A stretch of 19,452 bases of DNA, from NCBI GenBank assembly GCA_046727435.1, contig JBKPCR010000252.1, positions 1-19,452 on the forward strand, read 5' to 3'. Under the pieces are notes generated by a model, which was not told the origin of the DNA, did not search any database, and was given only the letters and a program-made list of their open reading frames with translations. The stretch's first letter is position 1, and each line of letters begins with the position of its first letter. Positions 2 to 19,452 of this stretch are shown here, in pieces. Made by a program: the position numbers and the translations under genes. Source of the stretch: CAVPRW01 sp046727435 [NCBI: bacterium] (lineage in GTDB: Bacteria > Tectomicrobia > Entotheonellia > J063).

Positions 2-529
2 CGTGTGGCGATGGGCACGATATTGCGCGGCTGGGCCCTGGCCGCGTTGGGTGAAGGGGAGGAGGGGATGGCGCAGCTCCGGCAGGGGCTAGAGGGCTGG
101 CGGGCGACGGGCGCCGCGATTAGCTGGTCGTACTATCTGGGTTCATTGGCCGACGCGTATGCGCGAGGGGCACACGCGGAGGAAGGGCTGGCCGTGGTGG
201 TCGAGGCGCTGACGTGTGTCGACCAGACGGAGGAACGGTACGCCGAAGCGGAGTTGCATCGGCTCAAGGGCGAGCTGCTGCTCAAGCACACACCGCCAGA
301 CGCGCCACAGGCGGAAGCCTGCTTCCACCAGGCTCTGGCTATTGCCCGGCGCCAAGAGGCCATGACGTGGGAACTCCGTGCTGCCGTGAGTCTAAGCCAA
401 CTGTGGCAGCAGCAGGGCAAACGCGGCGAAGCCCGCGAATTGCTCGCATCGATCTACGGCTGGTTCACCGAGGGCTTCGACACTGTCGACCTGCAGGAGG
501 CCAAGGCGCTGCTTGACGAGTGGTCCTGA
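2..529 (+). CDS. C-terminal TPR tail of a type A cyclase–ATPase–TPR protein (partial, open at left edge)
   Basis: The frame is open to the left edge, so this is the 3' end of a larger gene. The GTG at 5 and ATG at 11 are internal codons, not starts. The translated 175 residues are alpha-helical and TPR-like. The last ~60 residues closely match the end of the complete type A protein at 12345–16067. Both share LWQQQGK, then IYGWFTEGFDT, then DLQEAKALL just before the stop. The missing upstream part should therefore hold the N-terminal repeats, cyclase domain and STAND ATPase, but that is inference because none of it lies in the window. TPR tails of this kind bind protein partners or fold back on the ATPase. 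A decayed ComM fragment follows, as happens downstream of the second type A gene. Confidence 0.85.
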   Translation, partial: RVAMGTILRGWALAALGEGEEGMAQLRQGLEGWRATGAAISWSYYLGSLADAYARGAHAEEGLAVVVEALTCVDQTEERYAEAELHRLKGELLLKHTPPDAPQAEACFHQALAIARRQEAMTWELRAAVSLSQLWQQQGKRGEARELLASIYGWFTEGFDTVDLQEAKALLDEWS

Positions 530-613
530 TATTCCTCTGCGCCGTTGCCTCAACTAGAAGTGCCGGTTAAGTAAGCTATCCGTCGGCATCCTTAGAGGCT
601 GTGGTAAAGCTGA

Positions 614-985
614 ATGCGATGCAGGCGTTCTGACCATAATGTGCTCCTGCTGGGCCCTCCTGGGGCGGGCAAGTCCATGCTGGCACGGCGGCTCACTACC
701 ATGCTGCCGGCGATGACTCTCGCCGAGGCCATTGAGACCACGCGTATCCACCGCGTTGCCGGCCTCACCGGCGACCGTACGGCGTTGGGCACGACCCGCC
801 CGTGTCGCGCGCCCCATCACACCATCTCGGATGCGGGGCTGATCGGCGGGGGCCACGTGCCGATGCCGGGCGACGTGGCGCTGGCCCACCATGGCGTGCT
901 CTTCCTGGATGAATTGCCCGAGTTTCGCCGCCATGTCCTTGAGGTCTTGCGCCAACCACTCGAGGAGAGTCTCAGATACGTATAA
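614..985 (+). pseudogene. ComM/YifB-type Mg-chelatase-like ATPase fragment (copy 1)
   Basis: The translation matches the central AAA+ core of ComM/YifB (Mg-chelatase subunit ChlI family). It has a Walker A GPPGAGKS at 653–676, then the family segments [31 protein letters not shown] and the Walker B region [11 protein letters not shown], ending in [10 protein letters not shown]. Intact family members have about 500 residues, with an N-terminal Lon-protease-like domain and a C-terminal Mg-chelatase lid. Here only about 120 central residues remain. The upstream frame is closed by stops and the downstream end is a stop right after the LRQPLEE motif. I see no ribosome-binding site for the ATG at 614. 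ComM proteins act in DNA branch migration during transformation, but this remnant should be non-functional. A second copy with the same 3' boundary lies at 17630–17992. Confidence 0.8.
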
Positions 986-1159
986 TTTCGCGGGCGTGCT
1001 GAATCTTAATCTTCTTAAGACCTTAGCGGTACGGCTGCTGAGCTTAAGGGAGTCGGGCCGAGTTCAGTAGCCGTCCACCAGCACCGTGATGGTCACCCCG
1101 TCTCATCGGGCAGCCCTTCTTCTCCGCTCCCGCCTCTGCAGCCGTCTCGTGCATTTCAC

Positions 1160-1188
1160 TTGACACCTGGCCCCACCTGGAGTACTGA
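1160..1188 (+). promoter_or_regulatory. Putative sigma70-type promoter of the type B cyclase gene (copy 1)
   Basis: A perfect -35 TTGACA lies at 1160–1165, followed by a 17-nt spacer and a weak -10 candidate TACTGA at 1183–1188. The same TTGACA–17 nt–TACYGA arrangement is kept in the second copy at 18164–18192, where surrounding bases differ. That supports a functional element. The -10 match to consensus is poor, so assignment of the -10 is tentative. Confidence 0.45.
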
Positions 1189-1283
1189 CACCTCATCCCA
1201 TAGACCCATGTCAGTGGCGCGTGTCGAGGCGTCTGGCCGCGCGCGACCCTGCCGTTCGCACGGCCGTGCCGGAGGGCACACTC

Positions 1284-4200
1284 ATGCACTGCCCGAGCTG
1301 TGGCTTTGAGAATCCGGAAGGCATGAAGTTTTGCGGGCAGTGTGCCAGCGCACTCGGCCGGCGCTGCCCGCAATGCGGCTTTGACAATCCGCCGGGATTT
1401 GCCTTTTGTGGTCAATGCGCCACTCCGCTCACGGAACAGCCGCCAGCTCCTCGACCCCAGGTTCCCCTCAGTTACACTCCGAGCCATCTGGCCGAGAAGA
1501 TCCTCCACTCGAAGACTGCCCTCGAAGGCGAGCGCAAGCAGGTCACCGTGCTCTTTGCCGATCTGAAGGGCTCTATGGAATTGCTGGAGGACCGCGACCC
1601 CGAGGAGGCCCGGTCAATCCTCGATCCGATCCTCGAACACATGATGGCGGCCGTGCATCGCTACGAGGGCACCGTCAATCAGGTCATGGGGGATGGCATT
1701 ATGGCATTGTTTGGGGCGCCTATCGCCCACGAGGACCACGCCGTGCGGGCCTGCTATGCCGCCCTCGCGATGCAGGATTCGATTCGCCGCTATGGCGAAG
1801 AGGTGCGCCGCAGGCATGGGGTGACGGTGCAGGTCCGGGTGGGCCTAAATAGCGGCGAGGTGGTCGTCCGAGCGATTGGCAACGACCTGCACATGGATTA
1901 CTCCGCCATCGGGCAGACCACGCACCTGGGCGCCCGCGTGGAGCAGCTCGCGACGCCGGGGAGCACACTGCTGACCGCGGAGACGCTGCGGCTGGCCGAA
2001 GGGTTCATCCAGGTCAACATGCTGGGTCCGGTGCCGGTGAGGGGGCTAGCAGACCCCGTCAACGTATGTGAACTGGTCGGGGCCACCTCGGTCCGTCGGC
2101 GCTTGCAGGCAACAGCTGCGCGTGGGCTCACCCGCTTTGTGGGCAGACAGATGGAGCTGGATGCCCTCCGCCAGGCCCTGGAGCGGGCCCAGGCGGGGCA
2201 TGGGCAGGTCATCGCCGTGGTGGGCGAGCCGGGGATGGGGAAGTCGCGCCTGGCATACGAGTTCGTCCACTCGCACCACACCCAGGACTGGCGGGTGATC
2301 GAGAGCGCCTCGGTCTCCTATGGCAAGGCCAGCCCCTATTTTCCGGTCATTGAGCTGCTCAAACGCTATGTCCATGTTGCTGACGCCGATGATCCGCGAG
2401 CCATCCGGGCGAGGGTCACCGGGCATCTCCTCACGCTCGACGAGACCTTGCAGGACACGATCCCGGCACTGCTGGCCCTCCTGGACATCCTGCCGGATGA
2501 CCACGCGTTTCTGAACCTCGATCCGCTCCAGCGTCGCCAGCGCACTCTCGACGCGCTCAAGCGCATACTGCTGCGGGAAAGTCAGATACAGCCACTGCTC
2601 CTGGTCTTTGAGGACTTGCACTGGATCGACGCCGAAACGCAGACGTTGCTCGACCAGCTGGTCGAAAGCCTGCCGACGGCCCAGCTGCTGCTGCTGGTCA
2701 ACTACCGTCCAGAATATCAGCATGGCTGGGGTAGCAAGACCTATTACACCCAGCTCAGGCTCGATCCCCTGCCCGTGGCAGGTGCCGACGCATTGTTGCA
2801 CGCCCTCCTTGGCGACGACCCCAGTCTGGCGCCGCTCACGGCGCTCTTGATCGCCCGCACCGAGGGCAACCCCTTCTTCCTGGAGGAGAGTGTGCGGACA
2901 CTAGGGGAGACCGGGATCCTGGTGGGCGAGCGCGGCGCGTGCCGGCTGGCCAAGCCGCTGGCCAGCCTACAGGTGCCCGCCACGGTGCACGCGGTGCTGG
3001 CGGCGCGCATCGACCGGCTGCCCTCTGAGGAGAAGCACCTCCTCCAGACCGCAGCGGTGATCGGCACCGAGGTGCCCTTCGCTTTGCTGCAGGCCATCGC
3101 CGAGCGGCCCGAGGCGACGCTGCACCGCGGCCTGGCGCACCTCCAGGCTGCCGAGTTTCTCTACGAGACGCGCCTCTTCCCCGAACAGGCCTACACCTTT
3201 AAGCACGCCCTCACCCATGAGGTGGCCTACAGCAGTCTGCTGCAGGAGCGACGGCGTGCCCTCCATGCCCGCATTGTCGAGGCCCTGGAAGCGGTCGCCG
3301 GGAACCGGGTGGCCGAGCAGGTTGGACGTCTGGCTCATCATGCCTTCCGGGGCGAAGTGTGGGACAAGGTCCTGGCGTACGGCCGGCAGGCGGGAGAGAA
3401 GGCCCTGGCTCGGTCGGCCCACCGTGAGGCCACGGGGTTCTTCGAACACGCGCTTAGTGCCCTTCGCCATCTGCCGGAGACACGCGACACGCGTGAGCAG
3501 GCCATCGATCTCCGACTTGCCATGCGCTCGGCGCTCAGTCCGGCTGGTGAGTTCGGGCGTGTCTTGGCGTATCTGCGCGAAGCCGAGGCCCTCGCGCCAG
3601 CCCTCGACGACCCTCGTCGGCTGGCACGGGTCTCTGGCTTGCTGTCAGCCCATTTCTACTTCAGGGGCGCACATGACCAAGCCATCGCCGTCGCTCAGCG
3701 CGCCGTCGCACTCGCGACAGCTGGCGGGGATGCCATCCTGCACGCCCTGGCGAACCGCTACCTCGGCTTTGCCTATCAGGCCCAGGGCGACTATTGTCGG
3801 GCGATCGACTGCTACATGCAGACCGTGGCGGCCCTCGAGGGGGCGCTGCGCTACGACCGCTTCGGTCAGGTCTTCCTACCCGCTGTGCTCTCCCGTGCCT
3901 TAATCGCCGCGTGCCATGCCGAGCTGGGCTTCTTCCCCGAGGGCAGGGCCGTCGGGGAAGAAGGGCTCCGGATCGCTGAGGTGGTCGATCACCCCGCAAG
4001 CCTGATGTATGCTGCTTGGGGGCTTGGTCTGCTGTTGCTCCGCCATGGCGACCTGCCCAGGGCCCTCCCCCTGCTCGGACGGGCCGCCGCCACGTGTCAG
4101 GACGCAGACCTCCCGATCTATTTTCCTTTGATGGCCGCGGCCTTGGGTGCGGCATACGCCCTGGGTGGACGCGTCGCCGACGCCGTGCCGCTGCTCACGC

Positions 4201-4652
4201 AAGCACTGGAGCAGAGCACGGCGATGGAAACAGTATACTTCGAGACATTCTGTCGTCTCTCTCTGGGGGAAGCGCATCTGCTGGCCGACCGCTTGGAGGA
4301 GGCGCACACACTGGCCGCCGGTACGCTGGCGCATGCCCGTGCGCACCAGGAACGCGGCTACCAGGCATATGCCCTGCGCCTCCTCGGCGAGATTGCGGCG
4401 CAGCGTGATCCCTCGGAGCACGAGCGAGCCCAAGCCCACTACCGCCAGGCCCTAGCCCTGGCCGAGGAACTGGGCATGCGCCCGCTCGTGGCCCACTGCC
4501 ACCTCGGCCTCGGGAAGCTCTATGCCAAGAGCGGACGCCGCGCCGAGGCCCACGCTGAGCTATTCACCGCCATTGAGCTCTACCGCAGCATGGACATGAC
4601 GTTCTGGTTGCCCCAAGCGGAGGCGGCACTGGCGCAGGTGGAGGGGCGCTGA
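1284..4652 (+). CDS. Type B double zinc-ribbon / class III cyclase / STAND ATPase / TPR protein
   Basis: Predicted cytosolic signalling protein of 1122 residues. The start ATG at 1284 has GGAGG at 1271–1275, 8 nt upstream; a longer in-frame start at 1221 lacks such a site. Two zinc ribbons open the protein (Cys 3, 6, 17, 20 and 28, 31, 42, 45). A class III nucleotide cyclase domain follows (about 80–265) with metal-binding Asp93 (VLFADLKGS) and Asp137 (VMGDGIMALFG). The transition-state Asn position appears to be His214, while Arg218 is kept. A STAND/AAA_16-type ATPase comes next, with Walker A GEPGMGKS at 314–321 and Walker B-like VFEDLHWID around 441–449. The rest, from about 700, is TPR-like helices. 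This architecture is known from MalT/AfsR-like regulators and mycobacterial cyclase–ATPase proteins. The ligand and cyclase product cannot be read from sequence. It overlaps the next gene by one base (TGATG), so the two are probably translationally coupled. Confidence 0.9.
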   Translation: MHCPSCGFENPEGMKFCGQCASALGRRCPQCGFDNPPGFAFCGQCATPLTEQPPAPRPQVPLSYTPSHLAEKILHSKTALEGERKQVTVLFADLKGSMELLEDRDPEEARSILDPILEHMMAAVHRYEGTVNQVMGDGIMALFGAPIAHEDHAVRACYAALAMQDSIRRYGEEVRRRHGVTVQVRVGLNSGEVVVRAIGNDLHMDYSAIGQTTHLGARVEQLATPGSTLLTAETLRLAEGFIQVNMLGPVPVRGLADPVNVCELVGATSVRRRLQATAARGLTRFVGRQMELDALRQALERAQAGHGQVIAVVGEPGMGKSRLAYEFVHSHHTQDWRVIESASVSYGKASPYFPVIELLKRYVHVADADDPRAIRARVTGHLLTLDETLQDTIPALLALLDILPDDHAFLNLDPLQRRQRTLDALKRILLRESQIQPLLLVFEDLHWIDAETQTLLDQLVESLPTAQLLLLVNYRPEYQHGWGSKTYYTQLRLDPLPVAGADALLHALLGDDPSLAPLTALLIARTEGNPFFLEESVRTLGETGILVGERGACRLAKPLASLQVPATVHAVLAARIDRLPSEEKHLLQTAAVIGTEVPFALLQAIAERPEATLHRGLAHLQAAEFLYETRLFPEQAYTFKHALTHEVAYSSLLQERRRALHARIVEALEAVAGNRVAEQVGRLAHHAFRGEVWDKVLAYGRQAGEKALARSAHREATGFFEHALSALRHLPETRDTREQAIDLRLAMRSALSPAGEFGRVLAYLREAEALAPALDDPRRLARVSGLLSAHFYFRGAHDQAIAVAQRAVALATAGGDAILHALANRYLGFAYQAQGDYCRAIDCYMQTVAALEGALRYDRFGQVFLPAVLSRALIAACHAELGFFPEGRAVGEEGLRIAEVVDHPASLMYAAWGLGLLLLRHGDLPRALPLLGRAAATCQDADLPIYFPLMAAALGAAYALGGRVADAVPLLTQALEQSTAMETVYFETFCRLSLGEAHLLADRLEEAHTLAAGTLAHARAHQERGYQAYALRLLGEIAAQRDPSEHERAQAHYRQALALAEELGMRPLVAHCHLGLGKLYAKSGRRAEAHAELFTAIELYRSMDMTFWLPQAEAALAQVEGR

Positions 4653-5380
4653 TGAATTATCCTGCCATTGTCGCAGAGGCTCTGGCTCTTCTCCAGCAAG
4701 AGAAGCGGCTCTCCTATCGCGTCCTCAAACTCCGCCTGCAGCTCGATGACGACACCCTGGAAGCGCTCAAGGAAGACCTGATCTATGCGAAGCGGCTCGC
4801 GGTGGATGAAGCCGGAAGAGTCCTGGTCTGGGCCGGTGGCGCGGGGGCAGGTGAGACGCCAGCCGCACCGACAAGGGAACCCGCGCGTCTGCCACGGTCG
4901 TACACCCCACCTTATCTCGCCGAGAAAATCCTCACCTCCCGCAGTGCCCTCGAAGGCGAACGCAAGCAGGTCACGGTGCTCTTCGCGGATCTCAAGGGCT
5001 CCATGGAGCTGCTGGCTGACCGCGATCCCGAGGAGGCGCGCGCGATTCTCGACCCGGTGCTGGAGCGTATGATGGAGGCGGTGCATCGCTACGAGGGCAC
5101 CGTCAATCAGGTGATGGGCGATGGGATCATGGCGCTGTTTGGGGCGCTGATCGCCCATGAGGACCCTGCGTTGCGGGCGTGTTATGCGGCGCTGGCGCTA
5201 CAGGCGTCGGTGCAGCAGTATGCCGCGGAGGTGCAGCGGACCGAGCGCCGTGGCGCGGGTCTCGCAAGCCATTCAGCCGCATTGCGAGGCCATTGCGGAG
5301 AGGGCTCGCCAGTGCGCAGGTCAACTCTATTGACGAGACCGTGTAGTACCTCTATGGCATCTTGGCTTGGTTGTGAGTGA
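4652..5380 (+). pseudogene. Truncated hybrid cyclase gene (type A N-terminal domain + type B cyclase domain)
   Basis: The ATG at 4652 overlaps the preceding stop (TGATG), with GGAGG at 4640–4644, 7 nt upstream. Residues 1–65 match the N-terminal helical repeat of the type A protein (pattern RLSYRVLKLRLQLDD, ending LVWAGG). The linker SYTPPYLAEKIL and the cyclase domain are type B, with metal Asp113 and Asp157. Homology stops after residue 196 (EVQR, nt 5239). The remaining 46 residues are out-of-frame read-through into a transposase remnant, ending at 5380. The catalytic Arg half of the cyclase, the ATPase and the TPR domains are all missing, where relatives have about 1100 residues. It may still be transcribed and translated with the upstream gene, but it cannot form a complete class III active site on its own. 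Confidence 0.8.
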
Positions 5381-6176: not shown

Positions 6177-7829
6177 TTACACCTTATCCAGCCACACTCG
6201 ATGCATATCGATAGAGTTGGCCGGGATCGTCTGGAAGTTTTTGACATATTTGGCGAAGATCTTCTGCTCGTTCTCGTGCAGGATAACCGCAGCTGGTGCC
6301 TCATCGACGATGATTTTCACGGCGGCATCATAGTACTGTTTGCGCTTCTTTTCCTCCGGTTCTACTTGCGCCAGCTCGACGAGACGGTCGAACTCGGGGT
6401 TATTCCAGCGCCCCGCGTTCCAGGTCTCCTGTGAATGCAATTCAGGGAACAACGTCTCATCGGGGTCGAGGTCGGCGTCCCACTGGCCCTGCATGATATC
6501 CCATTGCCGCTCTTCCAACCAGCGCTTGCGGAAGGTGGGGAAGTCGTTGAGGCTGATGTTGACTTTGATCCCCAACTTGGCGAGCTGGGCCTGGAGCACC
6601 TCTGCCTGCCGCGGCGCATACCCGGCATTGTTACTGAGCAGCAGCGCCTCGGTCCCCTTCGCATAGCGCGATTTTTGCAAATACGCCTTCGCCAGCTCAA
6701 AGTCGTAGTATTGCCCTTCTTTATGCTTGCCGAATTCGGGGTCATAGAAGCCGGTCATCGGAGGCGAAATCGGCCCATAGGCGACGATCCCTTCGCCAAA
6801 CTGTACCTGTCTGAGAATCTCCTCCCGATTGATCCCATAGGCCACCGCCCGGCGCAAGTTGATGTCGCTAAAGGGCTCTTTGGCGCAATTGAAGGCGATC
6901 TGCCGCCAGTTGCCGCCCACCAGCGTATACACATTCAGGTTCGGGTTCTTGCGCAGCAGGGCCACAAACTGGGGCGCCGCGTTGTTGATGCCATCGACCT
7001 CACCGCTCTGGACGGCGGCCACCAAAGTGGACGGTTCGACGATGAACTTCAGCTGCACTTTGTCGAGGTAGGGCAGGGGTTGGCCATCATCGCCCCGCTC
7101 GAAGTACTGGGGGTAGCGCTCGAGCTGGATATAGTCCGCCTCCTTCCACTCGACGAACTTGAATGGCCCAGTACCGACTGGGTGTCGCCCGTAGTCCTTG
7201 CCCCACTGCTCGACGGCCTTGCGGCTGACGATGGTACCGGCGCGACCGGTGGAGCCAGTGAACGCCACGCGTAGGAATGGGTAGGGCTTTGCGAACGCGA
7301 GGCGGACGGTATGATCGTCGAGGATGTCGATTTTCTCGAGGAGCTTCAGCTTCCAGGCATGGATGGGCGCTTGCTTAACATCCTTGACCCGTTCGAGATT
7401 CCACTGCACATCCTGCGCGGTGAAGGGGTCGCCGTTGTGGAAGGTGACGCCCTGGTGAAAGCGAAAAACATGCATACGGTCGCCGATGATCTCCCATTCT
7501 TTCGCAAGGTCAGGGACGAAGCGGACTTCCTTCCCGTCGTAAGTGATCTTGAGAATGCCATTGTAGATATTGTTGTGGATCGCTGTAGCAGCGATATTGG
7601 TGGTGTTGTGGGGGTCGAGGGTGTCGATATTGGTGAAAATGCCGATCTTGATCATCCCGCCGCGTTTGGGCTGTTGGGCAAAGGCCAGCGGGACACTGCC
7701 GAACGACACGACCTGCGAGGCGGCTAGGGCGGCGGCGGACCACCCGAGCGTGTTGAGGAATGCCCGCCGGGTCTGGTCCTCACTCAGCATGCTGTTGACG
7801 ACTGCGAATCCATCGCGGCTCGTTGCCAT
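6177..7829 (-). CDS. Peptide/nickel-type ABC transporter substrate-binding protein (SBP_bac_5 family)
   Basis: Extracytoplasmic ligand receptor of 550 residues, the usual family length. The N-terminus carries a twin-arginine signal (TRRAFLN at 20–26, a hydrophobic stretch, then AFA before QQ at about 49–51). Export by the Tat pathway with cleavage near residue 51 is therefore likely. The family-5 signature is clear: a start of the mature part with LDPH, then LAKEWEIIGDRMHVFRFHQG and VTFHNGDPFTAQDV at about 110–145. The later segment RRAVAYGINREEIL is also typical. The ATG at 7829 has GGGAGG 8 nt upstream, which favours it over an internal Met at residue 14. It is the last gene of the transporter operon and is separated from the ATPase gene by a 97-nt spacer holding an inverted repeat. 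The bound ligand is probably a peptide, but the family also takes opines, sugars and metals. Confidence 0.92.
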   Translation of the reverse strand: MATSRDGFAVVNSMLSEDQTRRAFLNTLGWSAAALAASQVVSFGSVPLAFAQQPKRGGMIKIGIFTNIDTLDPHNTTNIAATAIHNNIYNGILKITYDGKEVRFVPDLAKEWEIIGDRMHVFRFHQGVTFHNGDPFTAQDVQWNLERVKDVKQAPIHAWKLKLLEKIDILDDHTVRLAFAKPYPFLRVAFTGSTGRAGTIVSRKAVEQWGKDYGRHPVGTGPFKFVEWKEADYIQLERYPQYFERGDDGQPLPYLDKVQLKFIVEPSTLVAAVQSGEVDGINNAAPQFVALLRKNPNLNVYTLVGGNWRQIAFNCAKEPFSDINLRRAVAYGINREEILRQVQFGEGIVAYGPISPPMTGFYDPEFGKHKEGQYYDFELAKAYLQKSRYAKGTEALLLSNNAGYAPRQAEVLQAQLAKLGIKVNISLNDFPTFRKRWLEERQWDIMQGQWDADLDPDETLFPELHSQETWNAGRWNNPEFDRLVELAQVEPEEKKRKQYYDAAVKIIVDEAPAAVILHENEQKIFAKYVKNFQTIPANSIDMHRVWLDKV

Positions 7830-7858
7830 GCTCGTACCCTCCCTGATAAACGTTCAAC

Positions 7859-7914
7859 GTTCAAAGTTGAGTCCTGTCGCTCCGCACCTGGCTATTCAAC
7901 CTTGAACTTTGAAC
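7859..7914. repeat. Inverted repeat between the ATPase and substrate-binding protein genes
   Basis: GTTCAAAGTT at 7859–7868 is the exact reverse complement of AACTTTGAAC at 7905–7914, with a 36-nt loop. The left arm is preceded by a tandem CGTTCAA CGTTCAA. In the operon mRNA this would fold into a stem just upstream of the ribosome-binding site of the binding-protein gene. Such structures often adjust relative expression of the binding protein. It could also be a dispersed repeat. Confidence 0.5.
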
Positions 7915-7926
7915 CTCGCACCTTCG

Positions 7927-8925
7927 CTATCGCTCATACAAATGACACGCGACCGCGTGCCCCGATTCTATGGTCGTCAACTCGGGCTCAACGGCGCGAC
8001 AACGCTCCATCCGGTAGGGGCAACGATTGTAGAACCGGCACCCAGGGGGCAAATCGATCAGGTTCGACAACTCACCGCTGAGGAGACGCTCAGTCTGGTC
8101 AAACATTGAACTGCTGCCGTCACCGATGGTGGGGATTGAAGCCAGGAGCGCCTGTGAGTATGGGTGCAGCGGCTTGTCGAACAGCGTAGCTGCCGGAGCG
8201 ATCTCCACCAGCTTCCCCAGATACATCACGGCCACGCGATGGCTGATGAACCGCACCACGCCGAGGTCGTGAGAGATGAATAGATACGCCAGACCAAGGC
8301 GCTCGCGCAGTTCCACGAGCAGATTCAGAATTTGGGCACGCACCGAGACGTCCAGCGCCGACACCGCTTCGTCGGCGACGATCAACTTGGGGCGCACCCC
8401 CAGGGCGCGGGCGATGCCAACGCGCTGCCGTTGTCCACCACTCAACTCGTGGGGATAGCGCTCGGCATGTTCCAGGCTGAGCCCCACCAGCTCCAGAATA
8501 GAGTTGACGTCGGCCTGTATCGTATCTTGAGTGGTCAGGCCATGAACCAACATAGGCTCACCGACGATCTGCCACACTGGCAGTCTTGGATTCAAGGAGG
8601 AGTAGGGATCTTGAAAGACGATCTGGGCCTGACGCCGGAAGGGCCGCAATGCTTTGCCGTGCAGAGTGGTGACATCCTGGCCCTCGAAGAGAATACGGCC
8701 AGCCGTAGGAGCAATGGCCCGCAGGATTAAGCGCCCTGTGGTCGTCTTGCCGCAGCCGCTCTCGCCCACCAACCCCAATGTCTCCGTAGGAGCGATGGTA
8801 AAACTCACACCGTCGACAGCGCGCAGCGTCCGTCCAAACCTCCCGGGCAGCAGACGGCTCAACGGCCCATCGTCCACGGCATAATGCTTCGTGAGCTGTT
8901 GGACGTCGAGTAAGAAGCTTCCCAT
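7927..8925 (-). CDS. Peptide ABC transporter ATP-binding protein (DppF/OppF type)
   Basis: Cytoplasmic ATPase subunit of 332 residues. Start chosen at ATG 8925 (MGSFLLDVQQL), which has a purine-rich GGAAGGGGAG upstream. The frame extends to 9081, but the extra residues are encoded by a repeat and the preceding gene's end and look non-coding. Motifs are Walker A GESGCGKT at 54–61, Q-loop Gln105, signature LSGGQRQR at 161–168 and Walker B with D185-E186, then ISHDLGVV with the switch His. The Walker B tail reads DEAVSALD rather than the usual DEPVSALD. The C-terminal region PPGCRFYNRCPYRMERC is the Cys-rich oligopeptide-transporter extension. It should pair with the neighbouring ATPase at 9029–10018. 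Confidence 0.92.
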   Translation of the reverse strand: MGSFLLDVQQLTKHYAVDDGPLSRLLPGRFGRTLRAVDGVSFTIAPTETLGLVGESGCGKTTTGRLILRAIAPTAGRILFEGQDVTTLHGKALRPFRRQAQIVFQDPYSSLNPRLPVWQIVGEPMLVHGLTTQDTIQADVNSILELVGLSLEHAERYPHELSGGQRQRVGIARALGVRPKLIVADEAVSALDVSVRAQILNLLVELRERLGLAYLFISHDLGVVRFISHRVAVMYLGKLVEIAPAATLFDKPLHPYSQALLASIPTIGDGSSSMFDQTERLLSGELSNLIDLPPGCRFYNRCPYRMERCRAVEPELTTIESGHAVACHLYER

Positions 8926-8934
8926 AGCGGCTCC

Positions 8935-9020
8935 CCTTCCTCCCTTGCGGGGGAAGGTTGGCATGGGGGGTAAAATCGGCACTGACCCCCACCTGTATCC
9001 TCCCCTGCAAGGGGGGAGGA
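8935..9020. repeat. Paired REP-like GC hairpins between the two ATPase genes
   Basis: Two hairpins lie in the 103-nt gap. At 8935–8957, CCTTCC-T-CCC pairs across TTGC with GGG-GGAAGG (one bulged T). At 8998–9020, TCCTCCCC pairs across a short loop with GGGG-GG-AGGA. The C-rich/TTGC/G-rich and C-rich/TGCAA/G-rich cores resemble each other, as in dispersed REP-like or MITE-like elements. In the mRNA the pair could stabilise the upstream message or reduce translation of the downstream ATPase. Confidence 0.6.
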
Positions 9021-9028
9021 AAGGTGCA

Positions 9029-10860: not shown

Positions 10861-10868
10861 AGAATGAT

Positions 10869-12037: not shown

Positions 12038-12253
12038 ATGAATGTACTGTGATGTCATCCCAGGGCATGCAGGTGGACAGCTTCACCGTAATTGACGCGT
12101 AATTGTTCAGGGGGTAGCCCCCTAGTATGACCAAGGCTGCACTCTATTTCCCATGTTCTGGGTTCTGGAATTTTTCCGGCTTCTTCCCGATAGGCGCCCT
12201 GCCAGGGGCACTGCAGCGCTGTGCAATTTCTCCTGCCGCTCCTCCAGATTCCT

Positions 12254-12261
12254 GGTATACT
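12254..12261 (+). promoter_or_regulatory. Putative extended -10 promoter of the type A cyclase gene
   Basis: TGGTATACT (the TATACT hexamer is at 12256–12261) is an extended -10 element with five of six consensus bases. The -35 region is weak, as often with extended -10 promoters. Transcription would start near 12268, about 77 nt before the ATG at 12345. That agrees with the ribosome-binding site and argues against any start at 12153. Confidence 0.5.
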
Positions 12262-12344
12262 CGCGGTGCTCTGTCCTTATCGAACCCGCCTTGACGAACG
12301 ATGCTCTCCCGTGGCATGAGGGCCAGACTGATGGAGGGGCAGCC

Positions 12345-15300
12345 ATGACCTTCGAGGAGATTCTCAATCAAGTGCTGGCGATGCTCCAACGGCGAGGCCG
12401 CGTGACCTATCGGACACTCAAACGGCAGTTCAACCTGGATGAAAACGCCTTCGAGGACCTTAAGGACGAACTTCTGTACGCACAGCCACACGTGGTCGAT
12501 GACGACGGCCATGGCTTGGTCTGGAGGGACGGCGCACCACCACTGCACGCAGACGTACGACACGGCACAGAGGCTGAGAGGCGTTTCTACGCACTGCTCC
12601 CAGGGGTGATGGCACTGCTCCGACAAGAGCGGCGGGTCACGTACCGCACGCTCAAATACGTTTTTGGCCTCGACGATACCTTACTAGAGGACGTGCGGGA
12701 AGAACTCGGGTTCAAACGACTCGCGCGCGATGAGGATGGTGAGGGCCTGGTGTGGACAGGCGAGGGGCCACTTGCGGGCCCATCCGCCACGGCACCCCCA
12801 AGCCCGTCTGCTCTCCCAGACGCCATCGCCGTCACGTCCCTTCCGTCCCCCGCGTTTTCCCTTCCCACCGCGCAGACCGAGCCTCTGCACGTCGTAACAG
12901 TCGTCCCGCCCGCACCGATCCACCACGCCCCCGACGCCGAACGCCGCCAGCTGACCGTGATGTTTTGTGACCTTGTGGGCTCCACGCGGCTCTCTGGTCA
13001 GCTTGACCCCGAAGACCTGCGCGCGGTGGTCCGCGCCTACCAGGAGGCCGCGGCCGAGGTTATCAAGTCCTACGCGGGCCATATCGCCCAATACCTCGGC
13101 GATGGGCTGCTGGTCTATTTTGGCTACCCCGCGGCCCATGAAGACGATGCCCGGCGCGCTGTGCACGCGGGCCTGGGTATTGTTGAGGCCATTGTCACCC
13201 TAAATACCCGTCTGGCGGCACAGTATGGTGCGCAGCTCGCGGTGCGGCTCGGCATCCATACCGGTCCGGTCGTGGTGGGAGTGATGGGAGGGGGCGGGCG
13301 GTACGAGCACCTGGCCCTGGGGGAAACGCCCAACCTCGCTGCGCGGCTCCAAGCCCTCGCCCCGGCCAATGCGGTTGTCATCAGCGCCGTGACGGCACGG
13401 CTGCTCCAAGGCACCTTTGCCCTGGAAGACCTGGGTACCCATGCGCTCCCCGGGGTCGCCGAGCCGATGGCAGTCAGCCATGTGCGTGGCCTGCTGACAT
13501 CGCCCAGCCGCGACGAGGAGTTCTCCACCGCTGGAGTCCCGCTCCTGGTGGGGCGGGAGGAGGAAAGTGGGCTGCTGCGCCGACGCTGGGACCAGAGCAA
13601 AGCCGGGTTGGGGCAGGTCGTCTTCGTCAGCGGCGAGGCCGGCATTGGCAAATCGGTCCTGGTGGAAGCGCTGCGGGCACAGGTGCGCGGCGAGGGGTTG
13701 CCGCGCATCGCCTTGCGTTGTTCGCCCTATCATGCCACCAGCGCTCTCTATCCCGTGATCACTCACCTCGAGCACGTGCTGCAGTTGGAGCCTGAAGACC
13801 CCCCCGCGACCAGGCTGGCCAAATTGGAGGCGGGGCTGTGGCCCTCTGGCCTGCCGCTGGCCGATGTAGTGCCGCTGTTGGCCGGGTTGCTGTCGGTACC
13901 GCTGCCGGCGGAGCGCTCTGCGCCTCTGACGTTGACGCCGCCGCAACAGAAACAGCAGACGCTAGACGCGCTGGTCGCGTGGCTGGCGGCGGAGGCCGAG
14001 CGGCAGCCGGTGCTAGTGGCGTGGGAAGACCTGCACTGGGCCGACCCCACCACCCTGGAACTCCTCGGGGTCGTGATTGACCAGGCACCCACGGTGCCGA
14101 TGTTGCACGTGCTGACCTACCGCCCGGAGTTCAGTCCGCCCTGGCCCGCACGCTCCCACATCACTCCCCTGGTGCTCAACCGCCTGGAGCGCCAGCAGGT
14201 CGAGGCGCTGATCGCCCAGCGGGCGGGAAGGAAAAAACTCCCGGCAGAAGTAGTGCAGCACATCGTGGCCAAAACGGATGGGGTGCCGCTGTATGTCGAA
14301 GAGCTAACCAAGATGCTGCTGGCCTCCCCGCTGCTATGCGAAGAGGCGGACCAGTATGTGCTCAGCGGGCCGCTGCGCATGGTGACGATTCCAGACACCT
14401 TGCAGGACGCGCTCATGGCCCGGCTGGATCAGCTCAATAGGGCCAAGGAGGTGGCCCAGCTCGGGGCGGTGCTGGGGCGGGAGTTTGCCTATGAACTGCT
14501 TCAGGCCATTGCCCCGCAGGATGAGGACACCTTGCAAGCCGGGCTGGCGCAATTGGTGGATGCCGAGCTCCTCTACCAGCGGGGGCGTCCGCCGCGGGCC
14601 AGGTATCTGTTTAAGCACGCCTTGATCCAGGACGCGGCCTATGCATCATTGCTCAAGAGCACCCGGCAGCAGGTGCACCAGCAAGTTGCGCAGGTCTTCG
14701 AAGCCCGCTTCCCCGCACTCGCGGAGACCCAGCCGGAGCTGGTGGCCCAGCACTACACCGCAGCGGGCTACGCTGAGCAGGCGGTGGTCTACTGGCAGCG
14801 GGCGGGTCAACAGGCAAGCGAGCGCTCGGCCCATTTGGAGGCCATCAGCCACTTGACCGCCGGCATCGAGCTGCTGAAGACCCTGCCAGAAACGATCAAG
14901 CGAACCCAGCACGCCTTGACCCTGCACATCGCCCTCGGCGCGGCCCTGCAGGTGACCAAAGGGCAAGCAGCACCCGAGGTGGAGCAGGCCTACATCCGGG
15001 CACGCGCGCTGTGTCAGCAGGTGGGCGAGATACCAGAGCTGGTCCCGGTCCTGTTTGGTTTGTGGCGGTTTTATAATATACAGCAACAGTTCCACACAGC
15101 ACGCGAGCTCGGGGAAACCCTGCTGCGTCTGGCGCAACATACCCACGACCCCGCGCTCGCGGTCCTCGCCCACTATACTCTCGGATGGACGGAGCTCTGC
15201 CTCGGCACGTTGCCGGCTGCCCGCCAGCACCTGGAGGAAGGCAACGCACGCTACACGCCAGACCAGCGCCATGCTCCGGCGTTCCGCATGGGCCAGGACC

Positions 15301-16067
15301 CGGGTGTTGCCTGCCGAGCTTTTGCCGCGATGGCCCTCTGGTTGCTGGGGTACCCAGAGCAAGCCCTGGCTTACCTCCACGAGGCCCTGGCATTGGCCCA
15401 CACGCTGTCACATCCCATTAGTCTGGCGTTTGCGCGGTCGATGGCGGCCTTCGTCTCGCAGTTTCGCCGCGACGTGCCGGCCGTGCACGAGCACGCAGAG
15501 GCCACCGTCGCTCTCTCGACCGAACAAAGGTTTGCCCAGTGGTCGGCTTTAGGCACGACCCTGCGGGGGTGGGCGCTGACCATGCAAGGGCATACAGAGG
15601 AGGGATTTGCCCAGATCCTTCAGGGGATAGCCGCCTGGCAGGCCACTGGAGCACTGTTGCTCATGCCATTTCAGAGCACCTTGCTGGCGGAGGTCTCCGC
15701 CCACCTAGGTCACACGGAAGACAGCCTCCAGGCGCTGGCCAAGGCCCACACCCTGGTGGAGCAGCACGAGGAACGCTGGTGGGAAGCGGAAGTCTGTCGC
15801 TTCCGGGGCATCTTGCTCCTGCGGCAGCTGGTGCCGCAGCCGGAAGAGGCAGAAACTTGGTTGCGGCGCGCCCTGGACGTCGCCCGCCGCCAGGAGGCGA
15901 AGTCGTTGGAGCTGCGGGCCGCCATGAGTCTGGCCCGGCTGTGGCAGCAGCAAGGCAAGTGCCAGGAAGCCTATGACCTACTGGCGCCGATCTATGGCTG
16001 GTTCACCGAGGGCTTTGACACCGCCGACCTGCAGGAGGCCAAGGCACTGCTGGAGGAGTTATCATGA
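12345..16067 (+). CDS. Type A class III cyclase / STAND ATPase / TPR protein with tandem N-terminal repeats
   Basis: Predicted cytosolic signalling protein of 1240 residues. ATG 12345 has GGAGG at 12333–12337, 7 nt upstream. Two copies of a ~60-residue helical domain open the protein (about 1–60 and 80–140; shared core R.VTYRTLK..F.LD followed by GLVW). A Pro-rich linker leads to a class III cyclase domain (197–385). Metal Asp209 (VMFCDLVGST) and Asp253 (YLGDGLLVYFG) are present, as are catalytic Asn330 and Arg334 (GETPNLAARLQ). The usual base-selecting Lys is Gln (IAQYLGD). The ATPase follows, with Walker A GEAGIGKS at 430–437 and WEDLHWAD around 560–567, which is MalT/STAND-like. TPR-like helices fill about 730–1240, ending like the partial protein at the left edge. 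Family members are multi-domain regulators. The product (cAMP or cGMP) and input signal are unknown. A propeller gene follows in the same direction. Confidence 0.92.
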   Translation: MTFEEILNQVLAMLQRRGRVTYRTLKRQFNLDENAFEDLKDELLYAQPHVVDDDGHGLVWRDGAPPLHADVRHGTEAERRFYALLPGVMALLRQERRVTYRTLKYVFGLDDTLLEDVREELGFKRLARDEDGEGLVWTGEGPLAGPSATAPPSPSALPDAIAVTSLPSPAFSLPTAQTEPLHVVTVVPPAPIHHAPDAERRQLTVMFCDLVGSTRLSGQLDPEDLRAVVRAYQEAAAEVIKSYAGHIAQYLGDGLLVYFGYPAAHEDDARRAVHAGLGIVEAIVTLNTRLAAQYGAQLAVRLGIHTGPVVVGVMGGGGRYEHLALGETPNLAARLQALAPANAVVISAVTARLLQGTFALEDLGTHALPGVAEPMAVSHVRGLLTSPSRDEEFSTAGVPLLVGREEESGLLRRRWDQSKAGLGQVVFVSGEAGIGKSVLVEALRAQVRGEGLPRIALRCSPYHATSALYPVITHLEHVLQLEPEDPPATRLAKLEAGLWPSGLPLADVVPLLAGLLSVPLPAERSAPLTLTPPQQKQQTLDALVAWLAAEAERQPVLVAWEDLHWADPTTLELLGVVIDQAPTVPMLHVLTYRPEFSPPWPARSHITPLVLNRLERQQVEALIAQRAGRKKLPAEVVQHIVAKTDGVPLYVEELTKMLLASPLLCEEADQYVLSGPLRMVTIPDTLQDALMARLDQLNRAKEVAQLGAVLGREFAYELLQAIAPQDEDTLQAGLAQLVDAELLYQRGRPPRARYLFKHALIQDAAYASLLKSTRQQVHQQVAQVFEARFPALAETQPELVAQHYTAAGYAEQAVVYWQRAGQQASERSAHLEAISHLTAGIELLKTLPETIKRTQHALTLHIALGAALQVTKGQAAPEVEQAYIRARALCQQVGEIPELVPVLFGLWRFYNIQQQFHTARELGETLLRLAQHTHDPALAVLAHYTLGWTELCLGTLPAARQHLEEGNARYTPDQRHAPAFRMGQDPGVACRAFAAMALWLLGYPEQALAYLHEALALAHTLSHPISLAFARSMAAFVSQFRRDVPAVHEHAEATVALSTEQRFAQWSALGTTLRGWALTMQGHTEEGFAQILQGIAAWQATGALLLMPFQSTLLAEVSAHLGHTEDSLQALAKAHTLVEQHEERWWEAEVCRFRGILLLRQLVPQPEEAETWLRRALDVARRQEAKSLELRAAMSLARLWQQQGKCQEAYDLLAPIYGWFTEGFDTADLQEAKALLEELS

Positions 16068-16117
16068 GACGCTTTGTAAATGGCGTACCCTCAACCTCCT
16101 CATGCATCGTATCGGCC

Positions 16118-16136
16118 GGCGCCGTTCGGCGCCCGG
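16118..16136 (+). other. GC-rich hairpin after the type A cyclase gene
   Basis: GGCGCC (16118–16123) pairs across GTTC with GGCGCC (16128–16133), and the stem extends outward by two G·C pairs around a bulged C. No T-tract follows, so it is not a classical intrinsic terminator. It may attenuate transcription between the cyclase gene and the propeller gene. The rest of 16068–16280 contains no gene I can support. Confidence 0.35.
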
Positions 16137-16280
16137 TGACGTGGCGAGGTGCTGCCCCATGTCCCCATGCTGGGGGAGAGCACGCATGAGCTGCCCGGGG
16201 CAGGAGCTCGTCGAGCGTGAGAGAGCGGGCAGCATAGTGAATGTTGGGCAAGGAACTCGTGTATAGGGAGGGGATAAACG

Positions 16281-17273
16281 ATGGCAGAGAAAACGTATAT
16301 CTATGTCGGGGCTGAGGCCAGTGGGCTGTTTCGGCAAGAGGCCGGTGGCAACCAGTGGCAGGCATTGACTGACGGGATGCCGCCCTCGCCCCAGGCCCGG
16401 GCCGTCGCGATCCATCCTCAGCACCCCGAGGTGGTGTTCGTGGGCACGCAGCGGGGCGTCTATCGGAGCCAGGATGGCGGCGACGGCTGGCAACGGATGC
16501 ACCTGCCTGAAGGACGGATTGTGTGGTCGCTCGCGTTCCACCCGGGCAACCCCCAGGTCATGTTCTTGGGCACCGAGGGGAGCGACGTCTATCACAGCGA
16601 CGATGGTGGCGAGAGTTGGCAATACCTGTCCACCATCGTCAACCCGGACGCGGTGCAGATGGCCTTTGCGACGCGTATCCTGGGGCTGGCCATCGAGCCG
16701 GCCGACCCGAACCGCATGTATGCCGCGCTGGAAGTCGGCGGGGCGGCGCGTAGTGTCGACGGTGGCAAGACCTGGCAGCTCGTCAACCGGCAGTTCGTCG
16801 GCAACGTCGACCTGATGGATCTCCACGGCATCGCGCTCGGCTCGCCGCAGGCGGATACGCTGTTCATCGCCAACCGCGTGGGAGTCTGGCGCAGCCAGGA
16901 TCGTGGCGAGCATTGGGAGAACCTGCACCTGGAAAAGTTCTCGCCCATCTGCTATTCGCGGGGGGTGCAAGTGGCCCCCAGCGATCCCCATAGCCTATAT
17001 GCCTGTGTAGGCCGGAACTTCGGGAGCGAGGAGGGAGGTGTCCTGCGCAGCACGGATCTGGGGGAGACCTGGGAGCGTTTTGACCGGGGGGTGAGCGTGG
17101 GCAGCACCACCTTCGGCGTGGCGATCAATGCCCACCATCCAGAGCAGGTTTACTTCTGCACCCGCCGGGGGCAGGTCTTCGGCACCCACGACGGCGGCGC
17201 CAGCTGGCATGAGCACCGCCTGCCGGAGTCAGCAGGCAACGTGATCAGCGTCGCCTGTGCCTCAAGGTTGTAA
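16281..17273 (+). CDS. BNR/Asp-box beta-propeller protein
   Basis: A 330-residue protein with no signal peptide or membrane segment, so probably cytosolic. ATG 16281 has GGGAGGGG at 16266–16273, 7 nt upstream. Six Asp-box motifs (S.DGG..W) recur: SQDGGDGW 63–70, SDDGGESW 106–113, SVDGGKTW 158–165, SQDRGEHW 205–212, STDLGETW 257–264 and THDGGASW 302–309. Each is followed by a stretch with HP/P.D…Y/VF..T, the pattern of sialidase/sortilin/Ycf48-type propellers. No sialidase catalytic Arg triad or Tyr/Glu pair is evident, so an enzyme activity should not be assumed; a binding or scaffold role is more likely. It lies 213 nt after the type A cyclase gene on the same strand and may share its transcript. 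Confidence 0.88.
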   Translation: MAEKTYIYVGAEASGLFRQEAGGNQWQALTDGMPPSPQARAVAIHPQHPEVVFVGTQRGVYRSQDGGDGWQRMHLPEGRIVWSLAFHPGNPQVMFLGTEGSDVYHSDDGGESWQYLSTIVNPDAVQMAFATRILGLAIEPADPNRMYAALEVGGAARSVDGGKTWQLVNRQFVGNVDLMDLHGIALGSPQADTLFIANRVGVWRSQDRGEHWENLHLEKFSPICYSRGVQVAPSDPHSLYACVGRNFGSEEGGVLRSTDLGETWERFDRGVSVGSTTFGVAINAHHPEQVYFCTRRGQVFGTHDGGASWHEHRLPESAGNVISVACASRL

Positions 17274-17629
17274 GCTTCCTCCGTCGGAGCTCTCTCGGTG
17301 ATGGCCGATGGATGCCTGCAGACCGCGTCGAGTCGCACAGCGGGGCGGAGTATCCACCGGCCAGGACGCAGGGTCTACCCGGAAGATGACGGTGAAGAGT
17401 GGTCTGAAGGTGCTCGCTGGGAACGCCGGCTGTCCCCGGTAGGGACGGTTCTCGCCGCGCTCGTCGAGGGCTTCCTCTCGCCATTTAGCTAGTGTCATCG
17501 CCTCGCGACAGAGCGAACGCACTTGGACAGCTTACATCGACTCCTATAGCACCAATCCCAAGCCGAGACAAGGTCAAACAAGAGGGTTGCCAGCGGGGGT
17601 GGAGGCAACAGTGTGGTGAAAAGCCATGC
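17274..17629. other. Spacer between the propeller gene and ComM fragment copy 2
   Basis: No recognised gene. A minus-strand frame (17522 to 17262, 86 codons) is open but lacks a clear ribosome-binding site and matches nothing I know. A plus-strand frame at 17298–17492 is a similarly unsupported reading. Recognisable similarity to the first copy of the ComM fragment begins only at about 17610–17630. Confidence 0.5.
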
Positions 17630-17992
17630 AAGCGTTCTACTCATAATGTCCTTATGCTCAGCCCTCCCGGGGCGGACACGTCCATGCCGGCCCGCCGCCT
17701 CACCACCATCCTGCCGGCGATGACCCTCGCCGAGGCGATTGAGACCACGCGGATTCATAGCGTCGCCGGCCTCACCGGCGACCGTACGGCGTGGGTCACG
17801 ACCCGCCCGTGTCGCGCGCCCCCCCATACCCTCTCGGATGCGGGGCTGATCGGCGGGGGCCACGTGCCGATGCCGGGTGAGATGTCGCTGGCCCACCATG
17901 GCGTGCTCTTCCTGGATGAATTGCCCGAGTTTCGCCGCCATGTCCTTGAGGTCTTGCGCCAACCACTCGAGGAGGGTCTCATCTACATATAA
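17630..17992 (+). pseudogene. ComM/YifB-type Mg-chelatase-like ATPase fragment (copy 2)
   Basis: Same central slice of the ComM/YifB AAA+ core as copy 1 at 614–985, in the same orientation and ending at the same point ([10 protein letters not shown] plus three residues, then TAA). The Walker A motif is destroyed here: copy 1 GPPGAGKS reads SPPGADTS, losing the essential Lys. The Walker B stretch [11 protein letters not shown] remains. The N- and C-terminal family domains are absent. Because both copies share identical truncation, the gene was already broken before it was duplicated. No function is expected. Confidence 0.8.
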
Positions 17993-18128
17993 TTTCGTGG
18001 GCGTCCTGGATCTCAACCTTCTTGCTACTTTAGCGGTACGGCTGCTGAGCTTAAGGGGGTAGGGCCGAGTTCAGTAGCCATCCACCAGCACCGTGACGGT
18101 CACGACGCCTCATCGCTCCACGCTCCTC

Positions 18129-18160
18129 CGCTCCGGCTTCTGGAGCCGGAGCGTGCTTTT
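18129..18160 (+). terminator. Probable intrinsic terminator upstream of the right-hand type B cyclase gene
   Basis: GCTCCGGCT at 18130–18138 pairs perfectly across the loop TCTGG with AGCCGGAGC at 18144–18152, plus an outer C·G pair. GTGCTTTT follows at 18153–18160, a short T-tract. It would isolate the following promoter from upstream transcription. The equivalent stretch in copy 1 (1126–1148) has substitutions that break the stem. Confidence 0.5.
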
Positions 18161-18163
18161 CGC

Positions 18164-18192
18164 TTGACACATCGCCACACCTGGAGTACCGA
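18164..18192 (+). promoter_or_regulatory. Putative sigma70-type promoter of the right-hand type B cyclase gene
   Basis: TTGACA at 18164–18169, a 17-nt spacer, then TACCGA at 18187–18192. This is the equivalent of the element at 1160–1188 and sits just after the hairpin terminator. The -35 is perfect and the -10 weak. Confidence 0.45.
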
Positions 18193-18286
18193 CATACCAT
18201 CCCATATGCCCATGTCCGTGGCGCGCGCCGAGATTCCTGCCCACGCCTGACCCAGCCGCTCCACGGCCGTGCCGGAGGGTGTACCC

Positions 18287-19452
18287 ATGTATTGCCCGAG
18301 CTGTGGCTTTGAGAATCCTGAAGGCCTGAAGTTTTGTAACGATTGCGGCGCTCCCCTTCGAATGCCCTGTGCCCAGTGTGGGTTTGTCAATCAGCCACAG
18401 GCCAAGTTCTGTGGCGAATGCGGGACAGCTCTTCCCCCACGCCCTCATGCACCTGTGAGCTACACCCCTGGCTACCTCGCTGAGAAAATCCTCCACTCCA
18501 AGACCGCCCTCGAAGGCGAGCGCAAACAGATCACCGTGCTGTTTGCCGACCTGAAGGGCTCGATGGAGTTGCTGGCCCACCGCGATCCGGAAGAGGCGCG
18601 GGCGATTCTCGACCCGGTCCTCGAACGCATGATGGACGCGGTGCACCGCTATGAGGGGACCGTCAACCAGGTCATGGGCGACGGCATCATGGCCCTGTTT
18701 GGGGCGCCGATTGCGCACGAGGATCATGCGGTGCGGGCCTGCTATGCGGCGCTGCGAATGCAGGAGACCGTCACCCAGTACGGGAACGAGGTGCAGCGCT
18801 CCCACGGCATCCCCATTCAGATGCGGGTCGGGTTGAACTCCGGCGAAGTGGTGGTGCGGGCGGTCAGCAACGATCTGCACATGGACTACTCGGCGATCGG
18901 CCAGACCACCCACCTGGCCGCCCGTATGGAACAACTCGCACCTCCCGGAACCATTCGACTGACAGCCGAGACCCTACGGCTGGTGGAGGGGTGGGTCCAG
19001 GTCACCCCCTTGGGCCTGGTGCCCGTCAAGGGGTTGCCCGCTCCCATAGACGTGTGCGAGCTGGTGGGCGCCGGCCCGGTTCGGATGCGCCTGCAGACGT
19101 TGGCAGCGCGAGGGTTGACTCCTTTCGTGGGGCGGCAGACGGAGCTCGCGGCCCTGCACCAGGCTTTGGAACAGGCTGGGGCTGGGCACGGCCAGGTGGT
19201 GGCGGTCATCGGGGAACCTGGGGTCGGCAAGACCCGTCTCTTCCACGAGTTCACCCAGGCTTCTCGCCCTCGGGGCTGGCTCCTGCTGGAGAGCTCTTCG
19301 ACCTCCTATGACCAGGCCACCCCCTATCTGCCGGTCGTCGACCTGCTCAAGGACTACTTCCAGATTGACGACCGTGATGAGGAGCGGAAGATCCGCGACA
19401 AAGTCGCCGGCAAACTGGTCACGCTGGAGACGGCCCTTGGGCCAACCCTGCC
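18287..19452 (+). CDS. Second type B zinc-ribbon / class III cyclase / STAND ATPase protein (partial, runs off right edge)
   Basis: The frame is open from ATG 18287 to the window end with no stop: 388 complete codons. GGAGG at 18274–18278 lies 8 nt upstream, exactly as in the paralogue at 1284. Two zinc ribbons have identical Cys spacing (3, 6, 17, 20 and 28, 31, 42, 45). The linker VSYTPGYLAEKILHSKTALE leads to the class III cyclase domain with VLFADLKGS and VMGDGIMALFG metal Asp motifs. As in the paralogue, His replaces the transition-state Asn (GQTTHLAARMEQLA) while Arg is kept. The ATPase begins with Walker A GEPGVGKT near residues 314–321. The Walker B region and TPR tail should lie beyond the window. 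It shares its upstream spacer, promoter and ComM fragment with the left-hand copy. Confidence 0.9.
   Translation, partial: MYCPSCGFENPEGLKFCNDCGAPLRMPCAQCGFVNQPQAKFCGECGTALPPRPHAPVSYTPGYLAEKILHSKTALEGERKQITVLFADLKGSMELLAHRDPEEARAILDPVLERMMDAVHRYEGTVNQVMGDGIMALFGAPIAHEDHAVRACYAALRMQETVTQYGNEVQRSHGIPIQMRVGLNSGEVVVRAVSNDLHMDYSAIGQTTHLAARMEQLAPPGTIRLTAETLRLVEGWVQVTPLGLVPVKGLPAPIDVCELVGAGPVRMRLQTLAARGLTPFVGRQTELAALHQALEQAGAGHGQVVAVIGEPGVGKTRLFHEFTQASRPRGWLLLESSSTSYDQATPYLPVVDLLKDYFQIDDRDEERKIRDKVAGKLVTLETALGPTL

Follow-up and report, generated by a model that had tools for sequence, protein, structure and literature searches.

Two copies of a comM-cyclase arrangement

The window analyzed here, the whole 19,452-nucleotide stretch of contig JBKPCR010000252.1 from a bacterium of the Tectomicrobia, carries a truncated piece of comM ahead of a zinc-ribbon cyclase gene at two places, which raises the question of whether the piece and the gene were duplicated together or have separate histories. 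An earlier note on this DNA described two cassettes in the same orientation and order, with the same spacing, some 17 kb apart. This was borne out by a blastn alignment of 613-2440 with 17620-19428, a direct repeat in the same orientation with 76% identity (1390 of 1835 aligned columns identical, E 0.0) and a distance of about 17.0 kb between the copies. In both copies, a comM slice is followed by a TAA stop, a spacer containing the 20-mer GCGGTACGGCTGCTGAGCTT, a GGAGG and the ATG of the zinc-ribbon gene, denoted here as type B, at 1284 on the left and 18287 on the right. While the note let the similarity end at the start of the type B gene, it instead continues at a much lower level across the cyclase and ends only shortly before the edge of the window.

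The comM slice, the spacer with its ribosome-site-like GGAGG and the first 16 cyclase codons together form a leader block, which was delimited at 613..1331 (plus strand) by alignment and changepoint on the left and at 17620..18334 (plus strand) by alignment to the left copy on the right. The two copies differ or are gapped at 105 of 721 columns when 613-1333 is compared with 17620-18336. The common sequence begins at about 613, roughly 20 nt ahead of the comM homology. Left of this edge, 530-612 has no significant match in 16068-16280 or 17274-17620 (best E 0.74), so the homology beyond the edge that a gene conversion tract should have is absent between 530-612 and the right flanks; it was possibly lost via a later rearrangement.

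Both spacers lie on the plus strand. The left one (968..1283) has the 20-mer at 1026-1045, TTGACA at 1160 and GGAGGG at 1271, and the right one (17975..18286) has the 20-mer at 18033-18052 and TTGACA at 18164. Nucleotide similarity in this non-coding part had been set by the note as a check on common origin, and it was found, with 60 differences in 312 ungapped columns; the spacers are thus homologous, and the lack of significant similarity that would have spoken against a duplication was not observed. The hexamer that the note read as a promoter is present in both copies, but a consensus scan of the plus strand did not recover a sigma-70-type promoter in either. The scans gave neither a consensus promoter nor a terminator in the left spacer, and the spacer had no Rfam match at gathering thresholds. 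The right spacer contains a GC-rich hairpin of 11 pairs at 18129-18153 followed by a short T-rich stretch, which the left copy does not form. The left spacer has two copies of the motif TGACAC and the right spacer one; an insertion-sequence end within the spacer was considered and dropped, as the plasmid and viral-contig searches returned no match.

Neighboring genes

The note placed a type A gene ahead of both cassettes with a propeller gene intervening on the right, and this arrangement was confirmed. On the left, the C-terminal tail of a type A cyclase/AAA gene (5..529, plus strand), cut by the window edge and without a Pfam match alone, matches the end of the 1304-aa type A cyclase/AAA gene at 12153..16067 (plus strand; PF00211, PF13191 and weak TPR matches). 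A sortilin/BNR-type propeller gene (16281..17273, plus strand; PF15902, 1.6e-25) stands between the latter gene and the right leader, and its best match is 46%, in G015 (5 genomes). The type A tail and the end of 12153-16067 share 78% DNA identity over 344-529, and the tails have diverged to an amino acid identity of 0.55 over 174 codons with a dS of 1.19.

Following the left type B gene, a broken third cyclase-like gene (4652..5380, plus strand) overlaps the type B stop (ATGA...) and matches the PF00211 profile only at positions 6-95 of 183. Its DNA is 80-83% identical to both type B cyclase domains, with the similarity ending at 5194-5234. By eye, it joins a type A-like N-terminus to a partial type B-like cyclase domain. 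Between the cassettes, the minus strand of 6177-11813 encodes an oligopeptide/dipeptide ABC transporter (a binding protein, two ATPases and two permeases), the solute-binding protein of which has its best match, at 65% identity, in G006 (26 genomes).

The leader is less diverged than the genes around it

To compare the leader with the gene behind it, we estimated their divergence separately. The slice had a dS of 0.22 (bootstrap 0.12-0.33) and the spacer a JC distance of 0.22, in contrast with a dS of 1.52 (bootstrap 1.20-2.52), near saturation, for the cyclase body after codon 16; the bootstrap ranges of slice and body, from 120 draws with undefined draws counted as high, do not overlap. This comparison of synonymous divergence had also been set as a check by the note, and its outcome does not support duplication of the whole cassette, from which slice and cyclase of equal synonymous age were expected. 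As such, the leader seems to differ in age from the gene that follows it. Considering that the type A tails are diverged as well as the cyclase bodies, the leader appears as a young segment between old genes.

The transition lies within the coding sequence. Third positions differed at 2 of 16 sites in codons 1-16 and at 192 of 364 afterwards (Fisher p 0.0016, with the boundary chosen after the fact), and a changepoint analysis, whose permutation allows for that choice, placed the break after codon 16, inside the first zinc ribbon (p 0.034). A sharp fall of identity within homologous sequence, as expected at the edge of a gene conversion tract, is therefore present after codon 16. Among 1393 other homologue pairs of similar body divergence, which have genes in common and are not independent, only 3 showed so high a similarity in codons 1-16, where third positions differed by 0.52 on average. 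Of 1864 pairs whose divergence was at least that of the window pair minus 0.03, 2 were as alike. Type B gene starts in general therefore do not have the low difference seen in codons 1-16.

The leader itself is uneven: differences affect 9.3% of sites in the slice, 14.3% in 968-1100 and 22.9% in 1101-1283, and the leader includes an identical run of 89 nt, longer than a single uniform rate would allow (shuffle p 0.0001). On account of this unevenness and the identical run, more than one homogenizing event, or local constraint, is likely to have acted in the leader.

A truncated comM slice in both leaders

The slice belongs to comM (YifB, Mg-chelatase-like) and was identified on the plus strand at 635..967 on the left (PF01078, 1.2e-47, profile positions 22-132 of 207) and at 17642..17974 on the right (PF01078, 1.1e-43). 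It comprises 111 codons from the middle of comM and aligns without gaps between the copies; the open reading frame that holds the left slice (614-985, plus strand) ends at an in-frame TAA shared by both copies, which finishes at 985 on the left and 17992 (17990-17992) on the right. When comM frames of more than 480 aa were searched using tblastn (E < 1e-10), 20 of 20 matched the left slice with 61-75% identity and 20 of 20 matched the right with 51-68%, and their best match elsewhere in the window had an E of 0.007. In the 526-residue comM frame of locus L104, the slice corresponds to approximately residues 235-346; about a fifth of ComM is represented. A functional ComM is expected to be a full-length protein with Walker A; these slices have 111 codons, and Walker A is kept in the left slice, while the right one reads GADTS, without the lysine and with a changed glycine.

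The note held that both slices have the same broken ends, and their break points do roughly coincide. Of 51 positions that do not vary in 24 comM frames, 42 are kept by both slices, 2 carry the same change in both, 2 are changed only on the left and 5 only on the right. Based on the same truncation points, the same stop and the same change at 2 of 51 positions, both slices look like descendants of one slice that was already truncated and degenerate. The note's description of the slice as a dead gene agrees with the lost Walker A lysine of the right copy. Of its claim that the cassette was duplicated as a unit after comM had been truncated, the order of events is supported by the shared breaks, stop and changes, but the single unit is not supported, given the dS of the slice and of the cyclase body.

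Differences between the slices are skewed to third positions (19 of 31, p 0.0013), the first half contributing most of the skew (15 of 23, compared with 4 of 8 in the second). When changes were polarized against other comM genes, 10 fell on the left and 10 on the right, with 5 of 10 and 2 of 10, respectively, at third positions; only sites with at least 70% consensus could be used, so third positions are under-represented in these counts. Part of the slice divergence could predate the truncation or stem from exchange with an intact comM.

Kinship of the two type B cyclases

The left type B gene (1284..4652, plus strand) encodes 1122 aa with a double zinc ribbon (PF12773), a class III cyclase domain (PF00211), AAA_16 (PF13191) and TPR (PF13424), and the right one (18287..19452, plus strand) has PF12773, PF00211 and PF13191; the TPR part is found only on the left since the window cuts the right gene. 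The left cyclase has the FADLKG and GDG motifs, and its TTHLGAR has His in place of Asn. Both type B cyclases carry TTHL.AR (1917-1937 and 18905-18925) where the type A gene has TPNLAAR, a replacement that we presume may affect catalysis.

The two cyclases are 68.6% identical and score 551 bits with each other. Within the best 25 of 85 places, the left cyclase scored higher with L001, from a Methylomirabilota MAG, and with L005 and L002 (565, 558 and 555 bits), and the best score of the right cyclase was a tie at 551 bits between the left cyclase and L019. Judged by these scores, either window cyclase seems to be roughly as similar to homologues from other genomes as to its counterpart in the window. 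In a tree of 26 rows, for which the window proteins were used without their first 20 residues, the left cyclase grouped with L017 and L066 (99/94) and the right one was placed elsewhere with weak support (84/61); none of 200 bootstrap trees united the two. An AU test did not reject the cyclases as a sister pair (p 0.16). The best reading of these sequence comparisons is that the two type B cyclases are old paralogs.

Searches for the leader elsewhere

Out of 80 homologous loci fetched, 79 were hit by a query of the first 300 residues. The N-terminus was present in 66, and in 61 of these the upstream DNA was longer than 700 nt. Upstream of these 61 type B homologues, neither comM nor the leader was matched at E 0.01. 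The exact spacer 20-mer had no match in genome_contigs or viral_contigs, and a spacer piece searched in plasmids and a spacer pattern searched in viral contigs also gave no match. Leader DNA (600-1300) matched five plasmid records, covering 18-47% of the query each and lying entirely within the comM part. In the phyla of G009, G006, G015 and G016, the same query matched 8 of 18, 78 of 95, 2 of 5 and 0 of 4 genomes, respectively, and the long matches in these 122 genomes were confined to the comM part, with a few short and weak others (e.g., query 470-521 and 636-670); we took none of these matches for the leader. A spacer query (960-1335) gave short matches in 11 of 400 and 6 of 395 genomes, none of which we read as the leader; with at most two candidates scored per genome, misses in this search are weak evidence. 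The best of these matches, 62 nt long (E 1.3e-9), covers query 313-374, which is the gene start.

To see whether other type B genes share upstream DNA, we compared up to 1000 nt before each of 71 gene starts and the two window genes, and 15 pairs besides that of the window matched at E 1e-6. Eight of the 15, analyzed bin by bin, did not show a long non-coding match adjoining the start before diverged bodies, and the other seven were judged from match coordinates and the tree only. The longest candidate, a match of about 255 nt between L037 and L029, L044 and L067, was considered as a second case of a shared leader and dropped, as the similarity is that of an upstream reading frame. In L029 and L037, a small conserved reading frame (LYLD.H.KIEGLT...) lies directly 5' of the type B gene, and L044 and L067 match it by DNA. 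Two paralogs of one genome, L011 (6001) and L031 (2546), are alike over about 96 nt adjoining the start (76%) before diverged bodies; judging by these alignments, they may be a shorter example of what is seen in the window leader. L015 and L024, also from a single genome, are alike over 79 nt adjoining the start. The type B genes L016 (882) and L072 (3803) of one MAG have an upstream match of 448 nt at 83%, which is out of register, near the start in L016 and more than 550 nt away in L072.

A probable young leader before old paralogs and its alternatives

Taken together, the leader of about 720 nt is probably far younger than the genes behind it and was copied between, or homogenized across, two old paralogs. 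It would consist of a dead slice from the middle of comM, the spacer and a gene start of about 16 codons before both type B genes. Either one paralog would have received it as a copy from the other, or gene conversion would have evened out an older common leader. Recombination would be the likely route, with its right end in the similar zinc-ribbon start codons and its left end at the border of the comM relic; the slice would presumably be a passenger. In consequence, the same upstream region would drive expression of both type B genes. Several observations count against a young leader, namely the AU p of 0.16 for sister cyclases, the 551-bit tie of the right cyclase with the left one and L019 (within the best 25 of 85 places), the uneven leader, the third-position skew (19 of 31), which would not be expected of a simple dead relic, and the left edge without flanking homology. 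Neither a donor nor a third copy of the leader was seen in the sequences searched.

One form of this explanation, the weight of which is contained in that given to the whole, is that an ancient type A-type B segment was duplicated entire, the propeller gene arrived afterwards on the right, and later gene conversion evened the leader only. We consider this form possible, though clearly short of even. The A-then-B order occurs twice in the window, while a type A tail match within 3 kb upstream, as far as the sequence reached, was found for only 1 of 61 other type B genes (L057), and synonymous divergence is similar for the type A tails (1.2) and the type B bodies (1.5); on the other hand, the left type B gene groups with L017 and L066 rather than with the right one (99/94), and no similarity is left over to the left of 613. 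Duplication of the whole cassette, as the earlier note proposed, with the leader changing slowly as a constrained regulatory element, would account for the same order and orientation, the type A gene ahead of both copies, the identical 20-mer core within 968-1100 (14.3% different) and an AU test compatible with sister cyclases. However, such constraint would have to cover even the silent sites of a slice whose right copy is without the Walker lysine, the hairpin of the right copy is absent from the left, the spacer has no Rfam match at gathering thresholds, and no leader match was obtained upstream of the 61 homologues, so that we regard this explanation as improbable.

A short ComM-like protein that is still made from the slice and kept by selection is less probable still. 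Both copies of the slice have an open frame ending at the same stop, third-position changes are in excess (19 of 31) and the NG86 omega is 0.27, but the frame stays open after 31 random changes in 68% of simulations and most of the excess stems from the first half (15 of 23, versus 4 of 8 in the second). Furthermore, third positions account for just 5 of 10 polarized changes on the left and 2 of 10 on the right (at sites with at least 70% consensus only), the right copy is without the Walker A lysine, and about a fifth of ComM is present. We give the least credence to the leader being a remnant of a mobile element that targets comM, as the AbaR islands do in Acinetobacter. Islands are known to use comM as their site (PMC7253598), and TGACAC is present in both spacers, with two copies on the left and one on the right; the 19 reading frames of the window that were compared with Pfam, however, contain no transposase family, the spacer piece matched nothing in plasmids and the spacer pattern nothing in viral contigs, and the right edge falls within a homologous gene.

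A young leader copied or homogenized between old paralogs shows how a repeat can pass for the duplication of a gene with its leader although only the leader is recent, and how copying or homogenizing events can be traced by what remains of an unrelated gene. An extension that we find doubtful is that the comM-relic leader is a portable cassette, which would spread among the paralogous cyclases of this lineage via their near-uniform zinc-ribbon start; if so, one regulatory region would have been set repeatedly before different receptor bodies. If more copies exist in the genome, they would offer a countable case of regulatory regions moving within a large signaling family of uncultured bacteria.

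Comparison with known systems

Gene conversion between bacterial paralogs leaves a local tract far more alike than its flanks. The window leader is likewise far more alike than its flanks, but differs in that its left edge is now without flanking homology. In comparison with comM/YifB (PF01078), the slice matches 20 of 20 comM frames but covers only about residues 235-346 of 526 and sits before a signaling gene. A broken comM beside other genes recalls the AbaR islands in comM (PMC7253598), whereas the scanned parts of the window contain no transposase family or element ends.

Among the titles and abstract openings listed, we found no published account of a comM-relic leader before paralogous cyclases. 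Intergenic region switching, or horizontal regulatory transfer, in which an upstream region and its gene differ in history, is described in the Piggy paper (PMC5890482). As there, the history of the upstream region in the window is unlike that of the gene, as indicated by the dS of 0.22 and 1.52, alongside the tree grouping (99/94) and the AU p of 0.16. The cases described there concern one locus across isolates, whereas here two paralogs on one contig have a common leader, which, unlike those cases, carries a comM relic and has a tract that enters the first codons. Intergenic region switching by recombination (PMC5890482) is the closest published idea that we found.
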